64,000 bases of DNA. It comes from an uncultured Bacteroidota bacterium. GTDB lineage: Bacteria; Bacteroidota; Bacteroidia; Chitinophagales; Chitinophagaceae. Under the pieces are notes generated by a model. That model did no database searches, was not told the origin of the DNA, and saw only the letters and a program-made list of their open reading frames with translations. This document shows, piece by piece, positions 38,977 to 48,780 of this stretch (position 1 is the stretch's first letter; the number at the start of each line of letters is the position of its first letter). The stretch spans positions 1 to 64,000 of the forward strand of contig CAIRYK010000084.1 in NCBI GenBank assembly GCA_903882805.1, read 5' to 3'. A program made the position numbers and the translations under genes.

Positions 38977-39092
38977 ATTACGAAGCGAGGTGAAAAGCAA
39001 TACCGAAAAAAAAATCAATTTTTTTTCAGAAACGCGGGTTACCTTTTTTTGTGTGTAGTATAAATGTGCATAACCAACTAAAAACGAACAAT

Positions 39093-39329
39093 ATGAAACT
39101 TGTAAAATTATCTATGCTCGCTCTTACAATGAGCCTTTTTGTAGTATCATGCGGTGGTGGCGAAGGCGAAAAGCCAGCTGCTGACACAGTTGCTGCTGCT
39201 CCTGCTACTCCAGCTGCTGAACCAACTCCAGCTCCTGCTCCAGCCGACACTACTGCTAAGCCAGCTACCGACACTGCTAAAGCTGCCGCTCCAGCCGCTG
39301 CTCCAAAAGCTGAAGAAAAGAAAAAATAA
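39093..39329 (+). CDS. Ala/Pro/Thr-rich small lipoprotein, copy 1
   Basis: This 78-aa protein has a signal MKLVKLSMLALTMSLFVVSC with the lipobox Cys at residue 20, then GGGEGEKPAADTV and a low-complexity tail of AAPATPAAEPTPAPA type ending in AEEKKK. The mature 58 residues are probably an unstructured, extended chain anchored in the outer membrane, perhaps a spacer or periplasm-filling tether. Function unknown. It starts 43 codons-worth of bases after a conserved TACCTTTTT box and is the first of three tandem paralogs. The frame is fixed by the signal peptide, while Leu-rich frames on the same strand are shadows of GCT repeats. Confidence 0.85.
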   Translation: MKLVKLSMLALTMSLFVVSCGGGEGEKPAADTVAAAPATPAAEPTPAPAPADTTAKPATDTAKAAAPAAAPKAEEKKK

Positions 39330-39352
39330 TTTGCTGATAAGCAAAACGATAG

Positions 39353-39387
39353 AAAGGCTGTTTCCTAAACCGGAAACAGCCTTTTTT
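39353..39387 (+). terminator. Terminator of lipoprotein copy 1
   Basis: A 13-bp perfect stem AAAGGCTGTTTCC / GGAAACAGCCTTT followed by a T-run. Confidence 0.75.
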
Positions 39388-39576
39388 CTTTTGTACTATC
39401 AGGTTGTTTATCCCCTCATTATTGAAGTGTCTGTCTACTAAGCTTGGATTACTAAGCGATAACGCCGGCATTTAGGGCAAAAAACCTAACCGAAAAAGTG
39501 AAAAATATTATCAAACAGCGGGTTACCTTTTTCTGCTTAGGGTATGAATATGCATAACCAACTAAAAAAATAGAAA

Positions 39577-39801
39577 ATGAAATTTGTAAAATTATCAATG
39601 CTTGCTTTGACAATGAGTCTGTTTGTAGTATCATGCGGTGGTGGCGAAGGCGAAAAGCCAGCTGCTGACACAGTTGCTGCTGCTCCTGCTACTCCAGCTG
39701 CTGAACCAACTCCAGCTCCTGCTGCTCCAGCTGATTCTACAGCTAAGCCAGCTACAGATACTGCTAAAGCTGCTGCTCCTGCTACTGAAGCAAAAAAATA
39801 A
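39577..39801 (+). CDS. Ala/Pro/Thr-rich small lipoprotein, copy 2
   Basis: This 74-aa paralog of the preceding gene has the signal MKFVKLSMLALTMSLFVVSC and the same GGGEGEKPAADTV start of the mature chain. The tail differs slightly (APAAPADSTAKPATDTAKAA, ending TEAKK). A leader nearly identical to that of copy 3 precedes it (GGGTTACCTTTTTCTGCTTAG), so the three copies probably share regulation. Confidence 0.85.
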   Translation: MKFVKLSMLALTMSLFVVSCGGGEGEKPAADTVAAAPATPAAEPTPAPAAPADSTAKPATDTAKAAAPATEAKK

Positions 39802-39826
39802 TTATCTACAATCAGATAGTCTTTTC

Positions 39827-39863
39827 AAAAGGGCTGTTTTCCATACGGGGAAACAGCTCTTTT
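39827..39863 (+). terminator. Terminator of lipoprotein copy 2
   Basis: AAAAGGGCTGTTTTCC pairs with GGGGAAACAGCTCTTTT with wobble pairs, followed by CCTTTTC. It is related to the terminators of copies 1 and 3. Confidence 0.6.
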
Positions 39864-40017
39864 CCTTTTCAAAAAAGCCACTGCATTGTTGCAAAGTTGC
39901 CGCCAAATAGCATAGTAGAGAAACTAAGCAAAAAATCCTAAAAATAATTTTCAGAAGCGTGGGTTACCTTTTTCTGCTTAGAGTATAAATGTGCATAACC
40001 AACTAAAAAAATAGAAA

Positions 40018-40236
40018 ATGAAATTTGTAAAATTATCAATGCTTGCTTTGACGATGAGTTTGTTTGTAGTATCATGCGGTGGCGGCGAAGGCGAAAAGCC
40101 AGCTGCTGACACAGTTGCTGCTGCTCCTGCTACTCCAGCCGCTGAACCAACTCCTGCTCCAGCTCCAGCTGACACTACTGCTAAGCCAGCAACTGATACT
40201 GCTAAAGCTGCACCAGCAACTGAAACTAAGAAATAA
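40018..40236 (+). CDS. Ala/Pro/Thr-rich small lipoprotein, copy 3
   Basis: This 72-aa paralog's signal peptide and first 30 mature residues match copy 2 exactly at protein level, with only scattered synonymous base changes. The tail is the shortest of the three (APAPADTTAKPATDTAKAAP, ending TETKK). Length variation among copies is confined to the Ala/Pro repeat and the C-terminal end. Confidence 0.85.
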   Translation: MKFVKLSMLALTMSLFVVSCGGGEGEKPAADTVAAAPATPAAEPTPAPAPADTTAKPATDTAKAAPATETKK

Positions 40237-43407: not shown

Positions 43408-45330
43408 TCATGCCGCAAACTTCCTAAATGCATCCAGATCTATACGCGCCTGATACGTTTTTTGAGATAGGTCGTTGATATGGCGTTCCAGCAGCCCCGA
43501 GCGGTTGCTGATGGTGTGTTTTATGTAGTTGAGCGACTGGTACTCTTTGCGGATGGAGGTTTCCAGATTGGCTTTTACTATGGTTATATCGGCATTTACC
43601 TTTTGCTGGGCTGCGGCTATAGCGGCATTGTCTGGCACATACACAAAGCCCGATGCCATTTGTCGCTGCCAGCTTTGCAGTATCTGCATGTTTTTGGGAC
43701 CTATACCGGGCGCTTTTACCGTTTGTAGTTTGGCTATGTCGGCTGCGGTGGCAATGCCCAGCGCTAGCAGCGTTGTTTTGCGGGCAGGTCCTACCGATGG
43801 TATGGTATAGTCGGCAAGGGGAAACTGGTTGAGGTAGTGTTGTAGTTGCTCATTATACAAGCGTTCCTCCTCGTTTTTGCGTATACGCTCCAGTTCTATA
43901 GGCAGGTTCTTAAAGTCGAATACCAGCTTTTGTAACGCTTGCAAGCATTTGTTGTACACCTCCAGATCTTTAGGCTCGTCATATTCGCGGATAGCTACAT
44001 TCAGTTTTTGCTGCATCATCAGGTATTCCATGTCTTTGCGATGCAGCTCAGCCAGTATATTTTTCTTCCAGGGCGAGTGTCGCTGAATAAACCAAATGAG
44101 CGCTACTGCAACCGGTATAGCCACAAAATTTACCCAAGCGAGCAGCAACCCCAATACGCCCACCGTCATGCTGGCGCTGGTTATCTTTGACTTATACTTG
44201 CGGTATTCGGCTGCAGGCTGCACCGGGAATAGCGCTGAAAATGTATGCTGTCCGTTCCATTTCTTCAACTCCAGCCGCTCTATACGGAAGCCGTTTACAA
44301 AGCTATCCATGTCGCCCAGTACTGCGGTTGCCTGTATATAGCTGTCGTCGAGGAAGTAGAGAATGCCCCGTTTCTTTTTGAAATAGCACCAGGGGCATTC
44401 CGTCATCTGTGCCGGATAGGTATGTATTTTAGATTCGCCGCAGGTAATAATATTGGCCAACTGCCCATCCAGCTCGCGTATCCATTCGGCAGGCGTAGGG
44501 CGCTGGTCGGTTTCAAAGGCACGATGAAACAGTGCTACCAGCGGCTCGGTAAGGTTGGTTATGTCGAAACTATCGTTGGGCGGCATCAACCGCTTTTTCT
44601 TGTTGGAAAGCGAGTAGGCAAATTCGTGGTTGCGGATGGCTGTTTCTTCGTCTATATCTGCCGCTGTTCGGTTCTTGCCGGCAAACGGATGCCTGCCCAA
44701 AAACAGCAACTGAAATATAAGCACAGCCAGCGAAAAACTATCGGTATTTACAGAGCGCAGCACATTAGTAAAGGTGCCGGCTTCCAGTAGCTCTGGCGGT
44801 GTGTAGCGGGGCACACCCACCTCGCAATAATAGTGGTCGTCGCCCTTTACCTGAAACGAATCGCAATCTATAAACGCCACCAATCCGGTTGAGCTTATCA
44901 GTATATTGCCCTCGTTTACGTCGCCCACCACCAGTCCGGCCTCGTGTAGCTTGTAGAATGCTGTTGCCAGATTGCGTGCTACATGCGCCAGAAAATGGTA
45001 CCCTTTGTCGGGAAACATCTTCTTGCGATCCATGGGGCTAAAAATCATGTGCAGCGGCACATAGCCCTGCAGCTTTTTCATTACAAACCCTGCCACTACG
45101 CCGTTTTGCTCCACAAGGTCTGTTGGCCATGCAGCATAGCTTTCCAGCGCCGGCGTACGCATGCTTACCATGTGGCGCAGCTTTTCTGTTTTTTCAGCAG
45201 TCAGGGTTTCGGTATATAGCTTCACCACAAAGCCATAGTGGCTTTGCAGCTCATACACGGCGCCTTCGCCGCCCCGGCCCAGTTCGCGGCCGGTTGTGTA
45301 TGCTATATCGTTTAGTCCCTTTAGCGTCAT
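43408..45330 (-). CDS. Atypical protein kinase with zinc knuckle, membrane hairpin and HhH domain (TerY-P triad kinase)
   Basis: This 640-aa protein has a kinase domain at residues 10-290: Gly loop ELGRGGEGAVYEL, Lys37 in VVKLY, catalytic loop VVGDVNEGN (Asp137, Asn142; the usual His-Arg of HRD is Val-Gly) and a metal site IDCDSF in place of DFG (Asp155). Cys297 plus CPWC (312-315) suggest a zinc knuckle. Residues 383-415 are hydrophobic, one long or two short helices. After a helical stretch, two helix-hairpin-helix units follow (505-555: IPSVGPARKTTLLALGI, VKAPGIGPKNMQIL), a DNA-binding type fold. Its ATG overlaps the phosphatase stop by 4 bases, so it is translated with the PP2C and vWA genes. 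Confidence 0.88.
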   Translation of the reverse strand: MTLKGLNDIAYTTGRELGRGGEGAVYELQSHYGFVVKLYTETLTAEKTEKLRHMVSMRTPALESYAAWPTDLVEQNGVVAGFVMKKLQGYVPLHMIFSPMDRKKMFPDKGYHFLAHVARNLATAFYKLHEAGLVVGDVNEGNILISSTGLVAFIDCDSFQVKGDDHYYCEVGVPRYTPPELLEAGTFTNVLRSVNTDSFSLAVLIFQLLFLGRHPFAGKNRTAADIDEETAIRNHEFAYSLSNKKKRLMPPNDSFDITNLTEPLVALFHRAFETDQRPTPAEWIRELDGQLANIITCGESKIHTYPAQMTECPWCYFKKKRGILYFLDDSYIQATAVLGDMDSFVNGFRIERLELKKWNGQHTFSALFPVQPAAEYRKYKSKITSASMTVGVLGLLLAWVNFVAIPVAVALIWFIQRHSPWKKNILAELHRKDMEYLMMQQKLNVAIREYDEPKDLEVYNKCLQALQKLVFDFKNLPIELERIRKNEEERLYNEQLQHYLNQFPLADYTIPSVGPARKTTLLALGIATAADIAKLQTVKAPGIGPKNMQILQSWQRQMASGFVYVPDNAAIAAAQQKVNADITIVKANLETSIRKEYQSLNYIKHTISNRSGLLERHINDLSQKTYQARIDLDAFRKFAA

Positions 45331-46094
45331 GGGGTTATTCTTGTTGCCAGAAACAGCGTTTTGTCGTCGTCTGTGCGTTCGTTTATTTTGGGGCTGTTCA
45401 GGTATTCTTCCAGTTTGCGGTTCAGTATGCTTGTTTTTTCGTCGTCGGTAGCCAATTTCAGAAACCGGAAAAGGTCGGCAAAAAATGGCTGGTGTGCATT
45501 GTAGCCTTCCATATTCAGCGCCAGCATTTGCAGTCCGTCGGTAAACAGGGCAACCTCGCCTACCGGCTCATCGAGCAGCAACACATTCAGGTGACTGAAA
45601 GCTGCATCGTCTATTACAAATGCGGTCGAGTTTTGGTATTCGCCATTGTGCGGCCACCATACCGCTGTGTAAAAACCGCTGCCATCGTTGCGCACTATAG
45701 CGCCATCGCCTATCTGAAAAAAAGCCGCTCTGTTTTTTGCCACCAGGCAGCCCAGCATGGTGCACGAATATTCGTTTGCCGGTACACCCTGCTCTTCCGC
45801 CTGCACTGTCAATCCGGCATATATAGTTTCAGCAATCGCAAATAGGTCGGCCTCTGTAATGTCTTCGGGATAAGTGGCTAACTTAGCCAGCTCATCTACT
45901 GCGGTTGCTACCGTAAATGCCGATGCCGCCGCCGCATACTGCGCACTGCCTGCGCCATCGCTAATGCAGCACAGCAACACGTTGTCGCCATCGGCGTCTG
46001 TCGCTATCCAGTATAGTATGGCGTCTTCGCAACCCTTGCCGCCGGCCATGTGCGATGTGCCTGCTACGCTGCAGCCTATTGCGCTCCACATCAT
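45327..46094 (-). CDS. PP2C-type protein phosphatase (TerY-P triad)
   Basis: This 255-aa cytosolic Ser/Thr phosphatase of the PPM family (PP2C_2-like) shows the metal-binding acidic motifs in order: GKGCEDA (Glu23-Asp24), ISDGAGSA (Asp46-Gly47), QIGDGAIV (Asp130), LFTDGLQML (Asp186-Gly187) and TDDDKTLFL (Asp242-244). There is no signal peptide or membrane helix. The gene overlaps the vWA gene and the kinase gene by 4 bases each, so the three are a translationally coupled operon. It is expected to reverse phosphorylation made by the neighbouring kinase. Confidence 0.9.
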
Positions 46095-46765
46095 AGTTCA
46101 GACCAGCCGCTGGGAGGTAACAAATTGACCGCAGTACCGGGGTTCTTACTCGACACCATTTTCATGGATGCCGACAACCACATAAAGAACTCGCGAAACA
46201 TAAGCCCTTTAAGCTTCAGTGGCGCTCGCACCGATATTTGTTTCAGCGCATCCATATTGGCGCCTTCTATACCTATAGCAAAAAAAGCAAACGATTTATT
46301 GTTTTCGCCATCGCGCACTCCCATGGCTGCTTTTGTCCAGTCGTCGGTGGGGGCTCCGTCAGTTATCAGTATTATCCAGGGCTTGTAGTACGCAATGCCG
46401 TGATCTTTATATTCTTTTTTTCTGCGCTTCACCATGTCTATAGCGGTGGTAATGGCTGCGCCTATGGGTGTATCGCCATTGGCATCCAGCTCGCGTGGGT
46501 GGAAATTTGGGACTGTATGAAAATCCGACTCCACACTTACCGGCCCAAAAGTAACTACCGCCACCTCCACTCGCTTGGTAGCCAACGGGTCGGACAGCAA
46601 TTCCTGACGGAAGGTTTTCACACCCTCGTTAAGCTGCATTATTGGCAATCCGCCCATAGAGCCCGAAGTATCGAGCAGCAGCACACAGGGGCAGCGCGGC
46701 TCGGGATTGTCGGCAAAGTTATCGCTGCCAAAAGGTATCTGTTCAAATGAAATATACTCGTCCAT
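46091..46765 (-). CDS. TerY-like von Willebrand factor A protein
   Basis: This 224-aa vWA protein has the metal-ion-dependent adhesion site complete: DTSGSMGG (Asp32, Ser34, Ser36), Thr99 in GDTPIG, and Asp136 in [10 protein letters not shown]. The sequence matches the TerY group found beside tellurium-resistance genes ([31 protein letters not shown]). No signal peptide is present, so it acts in the cytoplasm, probably as a protein-binding module that scaffolds the kinase and phosphatase. First gene of the three-gene operon; a near-consensus box (TAACTTTA, minus strand 46797-46804) lies upstream. Confidence 0.9.
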
Positions 46766-46950
46766 GATGCGAAAAATTATGCCTGATAATAATCTATAAA
46801 GTTAGCCAGTTTACAGCTACCTGCAAAGGTCGGCATTATGGTGTGTTACTAAGGTGTGGATTGCGGGATTTTAGGGATAGGTTAACGGATGGGAGTGGGG
46901 TGGATAAAACCACTTCATTTTTCCTTAAATTTGTATCAAACACAAGGTTT
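46766..46950. other. Shared divergent promoter region of the TerY triad and the toxin-antitoxin pair
   Basis: About 185 bases between the two divergent operons. On the plus side there is an exact box for the antitoxin gene; on the minus side only TAACTTTA (46797-46804). The middle is G-rich (GGATGGGAGTGGGGTGG near 46888-46904) with no clear inverted repeat. Confidence 0.4.
46926..46933 (+). promoter_or_regulatory. -7 box of the antitoxin gene
   Basis: TAAATTTG, exact consensus, lies 17 bases before the ATG at 46951 and inside the longer open frame from 46843; it supports the shorter start. Confidence 0.5.
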
Positions 46951-47214
46951 ATGACAGTCGCAGCAATTAGGCAGCAGCTACATCAGTTTATAGAGGTTGC
47001 AAGCAATAAAGATATTGAGGCAGTTTATCAATATATAGCAGCGAGCGATATGGATATGCCTCAAACCAACACTGTGAATTCAAAAAATGACAAATGGGAA
47101 GACTCCGCTTTTTTTGCTGAAATGGAGCGTAGGGCTAGTGCCTTTGAAAACGGCGCCGAAACCGGATACTCTTGGGAAGAGGTAAAAACAAAGGCAAGAA
47201 AACTGAACAAATAA
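46951..47214 (+). CDS. Putative antitoxin of a RelE/ParE-type pair
   Basis: This 87-aa protein starts MTVAAIRQQLHQFIEVASNKDIEAVYQYI, a helical N-terminal part of the kind found in Bacteroidota antitoxins paired with ParE-like toxins, followed by a Ser/Asn-rich linker and a C-terminal amphipathic part WEDSAFFAEMERR...GYSWEEVKTKAR, which probably wraps the toxin. The recurrent 'YSWEEVK..AR' ending is seen in many such antitoxins. It is followed after 21 bases by the toxin gene. Confidence 0.8.
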   Translation: MTVAAIRQQLHQFIEVASNKDIEAVYQYIAASDMDMPQTNTVNSKNDKWEDSAFFAEMERRASAFENGAETGYSWEEVKTKARKLNK

Positions 47215-47235
47215 ACCAATGTTTAAGAATATTTA

Positions 47236-47535
47236 ATGGCCTACCAAATTCGCTTTCATCCCGAAGCGCTTAGTGAGTATAGCGATGCGTACAACTGGTA
47301 TGAGCAACAGTCAATTGGCTTGGGAGACAAATTCGAGTTAGCAGTAGAAGATAAACTTGAAAAATTAGTCAAAAACCCAGAGTTATATCATTTTACTAAA
47401 GGTATTTTCAGGGAGTGTGCAATTCCCTCCTTACCGTATGTTGTTGTTTACTCAATATATCCAAACAAGAATGTAATATTTATATCCGCATTGCATCACA
47501 CAGGTCGGAACTCGAAAACTAAGTTTCGGGTTTAG
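47236..47535 (+). CDS. RelE/ParE-family toxin
   Basis: This 99-aa small basic protein starts MAYQIRFHPEALSEYSDAYNWYEQQ, the ParE/RelE superfamily beginning (strand, then long helix). The later blocks GIFRECAIPSLPYVVVYSI and VIFISALHHTGRNSKTK give the four-strand sheet and the C-terminal His/Arg region. RelE members cut mRNA on ribosomes and ParE members poison gyrase; the His-His near the C-terminus does not settle which. It is paired with the antitoxin just upstream, a type II toxin-antitoxin module. Confidence 0.9.
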   Translation: MAYQIRFHPEALSEYSDAYNWYEQQSIGLGDKFELAVEDKLEKLVKNPELYHFTKGIFRECAIPSLPYVVVYSIYPNKNVIFISALHHTGRNSKTKFRV

Positions 47536-47577: not shown

Positions 47578-48624
47578 CTACTCCTCCTCATCAAAATATA
47601 TCTTATAAAAGTGCTTGCCCGTAACCGGGTCGAAGCCCTTTTCTATGAGGCTTTTGTCGCCGTGAATGTATACGTGGAAGTTTTTGTCGAGTTTCAGTAC
47701 GCTTTTAAACACTTTGGCTTGCTTTTTCACAGCTTGTAGCGATATGTCGAAATTATCGGCTACCTCTATATCCTTGGCTTCGGAATACGAGGTCTCGAAA
47801 TTGCGGAAAGCGCTGATCACCCCTGGGTCGTGAAACACTTCTTCTTCAAACTTCTTTTTATCAAACGATTCATTGCCTTTGAAGTACTCTACTGTTTTGT
47901 TGAGGAGGTCTATCTGGTCGGTTTTGGTTATTTCGCGCTCTTCGGGTAGCTGCTTGGCTATAAACTGCTTGGTGAGCGTAAGGAACTGATTGGTTTGAAA
48001 GTAGGCGGTGGCTTGTGGGAGTACGTTCAAAAATGTTTCGCGCCAAAACACTGCTTCCTCGCCTTTGTTAGCGCTGTCGAAAAGCAGCACATCAAATCCG
48101 TTTTCTGCATTGGTAGGAAACACAAGGCAGCCTTTATCAAACTTGGCTACATCTACACCCACGCGCAGCTCAAACTTAAATTCTTTATTATCGCCCAGCT
48201 CCAGATCCAGAAAGTTGCTCTTGGTCTCGGTTTTAAATATGCCAATGGCATCAACAAAAGCTCCTTCTACTTCGCAGTTTTCGAAATAGCATATATACAA
48301 GTCGCCTGCCTTTATCTTGGGGTGTTCGGTGGCCTCGTACAGGCATTTGGCAATGTTTATGGCATTTTGCTGAAACGTCTCCGTTTCGGCAAGGGTATTG
48401 AGGCAATAGTTGTACACCTCGTTGTAGTCGAGCGACACCAGATGATTAAAAGCATATCGCTCCGACTCCAGACTGAACCGACTGAGAAACGAGCTGCGCA
48501 TTATCAGGCGTTCATCGTCGCGCAGTTCAATCGGAGCTTTAGAGTTTATGAGCTCGTCGCCATTGCCTTTATTGCCTACATAATGCACAGAAACCCTTTG
48601 TAGCACTGCATCGCTAAGATCCAT
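47578..48624 (-). CDS. Nucleoid-associated protein, NdpA/YejK family
   Basis: This 348-aa cytosolic protein starts at the ATG at 48624 (MDLSDAVLQRVSVHYVGNKGNG), 18 bases after a perfect TAACTTTG box; the open frame extends further upstream but without a family-like sequence. The conserved NdpA pattern is seen in SVHYVGNKGNGDEL near the start, FENCEVEGAFVDAIGIFKTE and FDISLQAVKKQAKVFKSVLKLDKNFHVYIHGD near the end. The E. coli member YejK binds nucleoid DNA; the exact role is unclear. Some members occur in accessory gene clusters, as here beside the toxin-antitoxin pair, with which it is convergent. Confidence 0.85.
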   Translation of the reverse strand: MDLSDAVLQRVSVHYVGNKGNGDELINSKAPIELRDDERLIMRSSFLSRFSLESERYAFNHLVSLDYNEVYNYCLNTLAETETFQQNAINIAKCLYEATEHPKIKAGDLYICYFENCEVEGAFVDAIGIFKTETKSNFLDLELGDNKEFKFELRVGVDVAKFDKGCLVFPTNAENGFDVLLFDSANKGEEAVFWRETFLNVLPQATAYFQTNQFLTLTKQFIAKQLPEEREITKTDQIDLLNKTVEYFKGNESFDKKKFEEEVFHDPGVISAFRNFETSYSEAKDIEVADNFDISLQAVKKQAKVFKSVLKLDKNFHVYIHGDKSLIEKGFDPVTGKHFYKIYFDEEE

Positions 48625-48642
48625 CCGGTTAATTTTTTTGGG

Positions 48643-48650
48643 CAAAGTTA
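48643..48650 (-). promoter_or_regulatory. -7 box of the NdpA-like gene
   Basis: Minus-strand TAACTTTG, exact consensus, 18 bases before the ATG at 48624. Confidence 0.5.
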
Positions 48651-48780
48651 GCGCGTATTGTGGGTTATTTATTGCGCGTAAAAGTATTGGCGTAGCAGCA
48701 ACTACTAGTGAAATAGGCAATATTTGGCCGTCGTTTGCCTGTTGGCTCTGTCATTAACTTATTATACCGATAAATTGGCC

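Follow-up and report, generated by a model that had tools for sequence, protein, structure and literature searches.

A vWA–phosphatase–kinase triad of a Chitinophagaceae bacterium resembling YegL-PphC-YegI of Escherichia coli

Architecture of the triad

The window analysed in this report is a 64,000-nucleotide stretch of contig CAIRYK010000084.1 (GenBank assembly GCA_903882805.1) from an uncultured Bacteroidota bacterium of the family Chitinophagaceae. We focused on three adjoining genes in it—encoding a vWA protein, a PP2C phosphatase and a protein kinase, together referred to as the triad—and compared them with relatives in other genomes and with YegL, PphC and YegI of E. coli. The genes, and the parts of the kinase that matter for the argument, are as follows.

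46091–46765, minus strand: vWA protein of YegL type, 224 amino acids, first gene of the operon, with a complete metal ion–dependent adhesion site (MIDAS)
45327–46094, minus strand: PP2C Ser/Thr phosphatase of PphC type, 255 amino acids, recognised by Pfam and by homology to PphC
43408–45330, minus strand: YegI-type kinase, 640 amino acids, recognised by Pfam, by homology to YegI and by an AlphaFold2 model
Kinase residues ~10–290: kinase domain
Kinase residues C297-H303-C312-C315: putative zinc site, suggested by conservation
Kinase residues ~374–418: predicted hydrophobic helix pair, followed by a coiled coil
Kinase residues ~510–560: helix-hairpin-helix (HhH)-type segment, followed by a long C-terminal helix

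An earlier reading of the window, made from its letters only (the sequence-only reading), had reported three genes overlapping by 4 bases each, and the coordinates of the open reading frames (ORFs), all on the minus strand, bear this out, with overlaps at 46091–46094 (vWA/PP2C) and 45327–45330 (PP2C/kinase). The composition that it likened to the TerY-P triad is confirmed by a Pfam profile search in which all three proteins score over the curated cut-offs (VWA, E 4.6e-11; PP2C_2, E 3.4e-41; Pkinase, E 2.2e-12), so that its observation of the gene set is correct. Measured against the TerY-P definition in the portion of PMC11090510 that we used, the general features are all present, namely a TerY-like vWA protein, a PP2C phosphatase and a Ser/Thr kinase with a post-kinase site that presumably binds zinc. 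The metal-binding residues in the first two proteins are as complete as had been claimed. In alignments, the MIDAS residues D32, S34, S36, T99 and D136 show no variation across 16 vWA sequences, and the same is true of D24, D46-G47, D186-G187 and D243-D244 of the phosphatase across 15 sequences. The window vWA protein also has an N-terminal segment, which the Ter-linked TerY proteins of the same genome lack. The three proteins differ widely in their rate of change, since mean pairwise identity among 18 carriers of the triad is 0.86 for the vWA protein, 0.57 for the kinase and 0.53 for PP2C, compared with 0.76 for PfkB, which is encoded nearby. The vWA protein thus changes at a much lower rate than PP2C and the kinase and is the most constrained of the three.

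The kinase had been described as a divergent protein kinase, a claim said to fall if the protein had no kinase fold. Its AlphaFold2 model (mean predicted local distance difference test score 89.7) has a protein-kinase fold, and all 50 PDB entries listed as structural matches are protein kinases, with PknB at rank 2, so that this condition does not refute the sequence-only reading. The glycine loop, K37, D137, N139, D155 and D157 are invariant in an alignment of 31 kinases from several phyla, as are C297, H303, C312 and C315, and the catalytic-loop N142 is kept in 29 of the 31 and is S in the other two. By alignment to standard motifs, we take K37 to be the ATP-site lysine, and D137 and D155 to be the catalytic and metal-binding aspartates. 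Beyond about residue 330 the model is helical, with helices at 374–398 and 404–418 and a hydropathy peak near residue 394 in the window kinase. A hydrophobic peak lies within the 384–413 region in all 31 kinases (weakest in L070), which together with the modelled helix pair would fit a membrane protein. The HhH domain of the sequence-only reading stands in part. Conserved residues (G544, invariant; G542, kept in 29 of 31) and modelled helices agree with such a segment at residues ~510–560, but the Pfam HHH_5 score is below the cut-off.

Relation to E. coli YegL-PphC-YegI and joint inheritance

All three proteins have near-full-length homologues in E. coli K-12, where YegL, PphC and YegI are encoded by b2073, b2072 and b2070. 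The window vWA protein is 62% identical to YegL over 217 amino acids (phmmer E 3.2e-91), PP2C is 36% identical to PphC over 252 (E 1.1e-40) and the kinase is 32% identical to YegI over 636 (E 3.4e-93). Gene order and the 4-nucleotide yegL/pphC overlap are also shared, and YegI has the C-H-CPWC site as well as a hydrophobic stretch and an HhH-type segment at the equivalent position. There are differences: the PP2C and kinase genes overlap in the window, whereas yegJ lies between pphC and yegI in K-12; the window kinase keeps N142, where YegI has S; and phmmer found no YegD homologue in the window, unlike in E. coli. In K-12, the 14 kb examined around yegL-pphC-yegI carry 13 annotated features, none of which is a ter gene. 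On these homologies we classify the triad as the Bacteroidota counterpart of YegL-PphC-YegI, and we consider it quite probable that it is a resident signalling switch on the chromosome, corresponding part for part to the E. coli system.

The E. coli system also suggests what such a switch might do. As summarised in PMC13232886, YegI is reported to be a kinase bound to the membrane that phosphorylates itself, and PphC to remove this phosphorylation. By analogy, the window triad is most likely a resident, reversible Ser/Thr-phosphorylation switch. The kinase would be anchored in the inner membrane through its predicted helix pair, its catalytic domain and coiled-coil/HhH part probably both facing the cytoplasm. 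If the chemistry is that of E. coli, the kinase would phosphorylate itself and its targets and the PP2C partner would reverse this, while the vWA protein may serve both enzymes as an adaptor or output hub that depends on metal. Whatever goes past reversible phosphorylation in this scheme we infer.

Several features of the distribution of the triad argue for a resident system. A near-full-length kinase occurs in 20 of 35 genomes of the genus (window genome counted) and in G036 of another genus, and in 5 of 395 genomes of a phylum sample, again with the window genome counted. Presence was mapped on a PfkB tree of 35 rows (33 genus genomes, G035 and G036), from which the carrier G030 and the non-carrier G027 were left off because no PfkB was found in them. 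It requires five changes, against a mean of 11.5 in shuffled data, and none of 500 shuffles was as low, a result to which near-copies contribute. Kinase and PfkB distances are correlated (r 0.83, p 0.001, n = 19). An OmpH-permease-PfkB block, which lies on the triad's strand ~4.6–8 kb away in the window, precedes the triad in 7 of the genus's 19 other carriers, some contigs being too short to judge. PfkB is present in 14 of 15 non-carriers, and the 14 PfkB-bearing stretches of these genomes, some of which end at contig ends, contain no triad gene. The triad has been passed on by chromosomal descent within the genus.

It has also been inherited jointly. In a survey of 195 genomes of the family (profile cut-offs E 1e-80 for vWA and kinase, E 1e-60 for PP2C), 22 carry the vWA protein, 22 carry PP2C and 23 carry the kinase, and the identical 22 genomes have all three (Fisher 3.7e-28, without correction for shared ancestry). 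Among related loci, taken as the best 80 of 112 kinase loci from a species collection, the triad is contiguous (gaps below 600 nucleotides) in 68; two others have it split by 0.8–1.0 kb, three run into a contig end within it, and in seven it is not contiguous. The PP2C–kinase gap in L059 and L060 contains no recognisable ORF. Six of the seven genomes with a non-contiguous triad have the vWA gene elsewhere, with PP2C adjoining it in five of them and adjoining the kinase in the remaining one. Since the family survey includes several of these genomes, its count and that of the loci are not independent. The co-occurrence of the three genes, even without linkage, suggests that all three are needed. 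Of 5426 E. coli genomes, 5357 have yegL-pphC and 5351 have yegI at a query coverage of at least 80%, nearly always on the chromosome. A single Escherichia record, L116, has the kinase split into two ORFs of 462 and 172 amino acids.

Several points weigh against this interpretation. The PP2C phosphatase and the kinase are just 32–36% identical to their E. coli counterparts, the predicted template modelling score of the kinase model (0.57) makes the mutual placement of its parts uncertain, and HHH_5 reaches 16.8 bits in the window kinase and 20.1 in YegI, where the Pfam cut-off is 27. The only pointer to an adaptor role of the vWA protein is its conservation. One genome, G618 (99% completeness, 490 contigs), carries the kinase alone, with no vWA or PP2C match at the cut-offs. 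Because of its completeness, it weighs slightly against a strict rule of joint inheritance, as does the kinase of L062, apparently from the same genome, which is accompanied only by a weak vWA match elsewhere. Finally, no condition that promotes expression of yegI/pphC is known according to PMC13232886 (2026), yet yegL-pphC and yegI are found in >98% of 5,426 E. coli genomes. A literature search covering parts of the relevant papers turned up no role for YegL.

Ter genes and possible roles in phage defence and nucleic-acid sensing

The sequence-only reading placed the triad outside any ter locus, with no ter gene in the window. For TerC and TerD this holds: phmmer, queried with the TerD and TerC proteins of this genome and a TerC from one relative, found no homologue in the window at E 0.01; TerB was not searched for. 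The triad does stand alone in the window (contig C84), the genome's PF02342 matches sitting on contigs C21 and C56. Such a location is ordinary, as most genomes of the family with the kinase have no TerD. One of these contigs carries a Ter locus with a triad of its own.

L042, 7799–16901, contig C56 of the same genome: Ter locus with two TerD genes, three vWA genes, an AIM24-family gene, PP2C (467 amino acids), kinase (502 amino acids) and TerC

As in the window, vWA, PP2C and kinase genes are grouped in this locus. The C56 kinase, however, has a CPFC ribbon and lacks both the predicted helix pair and the HhH-type segment of the window kinase, the C56 vWA proteins are only 28–30% identical to the window vWA protein, and TerD and TerC genes adjoin. 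G018 carries a similar Ter locus. A second TerD pair of the window genome (L043, 8327–9506, contig C21) lies apart from the C56 locus. A third type of triad occurs in genome G012 (L045, 6957–12078), which has no window-type triad; its kinase of 743 amino acids has a coiled coil and an HhH-like segment without a predicted helix pair, and a DUF2851 gene precedes it. To what is known of the window type, this study adds joint inheritance, a vWA protein that changes slowly, and a genome in which two types of triad occur side by side.

It could be argued that the window triad is a metal or tellurite stress module that cooperates with the products of ter genes at other places in the genome, which we regard as highly improbable. 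The metal site of the vWA protein and the Ter loci on other contigs of this genome and G018 would be in keeping with it, and the kinase is found in 5 of 17 TerD genomes of the family, a slight excess (Fisher 0.034, uncorrected). Conversely, the kinase carriers of the family mostly lack TerD (18 of 23), and its TerD genomes mostly lack a window-type kinase (12 of 17). Within the genus, TerD is present in 2 of 22 genomes surveyed (2 of 35 in all), and 11 of the 13 carriers of the window-type kinase among the 22 are without it. The C56 Ter locus already has a triad of its own with a different kinase, and none of the 80 related loci contains a TerD homologue at E 1e-4. A TerC-family gene does lie 0.44–0.57 kb upstream in four loci of the genus (L032, L033, L034 and L036), but TerC-family proteins are common outside ter loci. 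A second alternative, which seems very unlikely to us, is that the triad is a stand-alone anti-phage TerY-P, in which infection triggers the switch and phage growth is stopped. Stand-alone TerY-P triads are reported to protect against phage (Gao et al. 2020, through the available parts of PMC11090510 and PMC7699616), as is a Pseudomonas aeruginosa variant with defence activity (PMC10889362, likewise in part), and the window triad shares their three-part, stand-alone composition. The defence type is, however, described with a C-terminal OB-fold on the kinase (PMC11090510, in the same portion), and in this comparison by description the window triad differs, as there is no OB-fold tail in the helical remainder of its kinase model. 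The PADLOC TerY model, which we took by its name to represent anti-phage TerY-P, matches neither the window vWA protein (E 0.01) nor any protein of its genome (E 0.001); it matches 1 of 35 genomes, and E. coli YegL reaches just E 0.03. The kinase matches just the PADLOC kinase models PD-T4-6 (E 5e-10) and mad6 (E 4e-9), which belong to other systems, as kinases generally may, and a PADLOC search of 50 of the 55 non-overlapping window ORFs gave these same two models, with one protein each. The patchy presence of the triad (20 of 35 genus genomes) would suit a defence system, but a defence island would not be expected to show its clade-wise pattern or to be nearly fixed in E. coli. In tblastn searches, 790 of 72,556 plasmid records match the kinase, and 599 of the 790 are classed as conjugative, but just 6 cover at least 80% of it, and two of the 30 plasmid matches listed are annotated as yegI on E. 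coli plasmids; the three matching phage records cover at most 40%. A mobile-element reading was set aside on these figures.

The surroundings of the triad were also considered in this light. The sequence-only reading had raised the possibility of a stress or defence module, which the neighbours do not support. The recurrent neighbours, identified partly by eye, are SDR, GNAT, integrase-family, adenine deaminase, PfkB and permease genes, which look like lineage synteny; none of them was recognised as a Ter or defence gene. We also screened with PADLOC 150 of 720 candidate neighbours lying within ~1.1 kb of a triad, one per sequence cluster (one of them, L059:8440–9198, is PP2C itself). At E 1e-10 they matched 49 families, each of the 25 listed being found in 1 of the 150; we read the listed matches to DndA/SspA, RtcR, BrxH and PD-T4-6 as cross-matches of common families. 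A defence module is thus unsupported by PADLOC on the triad, the window ORFs and the neighbours. The sequence-only reading would, in its own terms, have been contradicted by homologues lying next to housekeeping genes in all relatives, with no link to stress or mobile genes; lineage synteny and near-fixed E. coli genes largely present that picture, the exceptions being TerC, OsmC, ParE and plasmid cases. Compatible with a resident switch is the idea, unlikely in our estimate, of a membrane-bound nucleic-acid sensor in which the HhH/coiled-coil part binds incoming or damaged DNA and activates the kinase; it would supply the input. The segment is conserved in the 31 kinases, with G544 invariant, and the G012 kinase keeps a similar one even without the helix pair. 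However, Pfam scores are weak (at E 0.01, just 2 of the 31 give an HHH_5 match), HhH segments also mediate protein contacts, and the sole DNA-related gene recognised among recurrent neighbours is the integrase-family gene, presumably XerD-like, in one syntenic block.

The resident phosphorylation switch can be taken one step further, in a form that we think quite unlikely. The triad may be an old signalling unit in which the near-invariant vWA protein would be the true output, a metal-dependent hub that docks on some conserved component of the cell and is under the control of a membrane kinase with a nucleic-acid-sensing HhH part; anti-phage and Ter-linked triads would then be offshoots of a housekeeping switch. 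It is the Bacteroidota members that point to the vWA protein as the most constrained of the triad.

Other genes and repeats near the triad

Inspection by eye recognised no McrBC-like or helicase partner as a recurrent neighbour, and the candidate of a recurrent fourth gene was rejected, as none was seen across lineages. In one genus block an SDR gene lies 3' of the kinase. A YHS-domain gene sits between the triad and the upstream TerC-family gene in three of the four loci that have the latter, an OsmC-family gene is upstream of the triad in two loci, and Mrr-type matches number 2 among the 150 screened neighbours. In seven proteobacterial loci (L094, L095, L099, L101, L102, L104 and L119), a gene that looks TetR-like by eye abuts the 3' end of the YegI-type kinase gene, and its product is a possible regulator.

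In the window itself, a gene for a ParE-type toxin and an antitoxin gene with a weak match (46843–47535, plus strand) are divergent from the triad, and neither has a relative in the loci of 20 relatives. Next to them is a gene for an NA37-family (37-kD nucleoid-associated) protein (47578–48720, minus strand). On the other side of the triad, positions 39023–40211 contain three direct copies of a 264-nucleotide unit, spaced by 484 and 441 nucleotides, the other two being 77% and 89% identical to the first; the copies cover small Ala/Pro-rich ORFs with lipoprotein-like starts.

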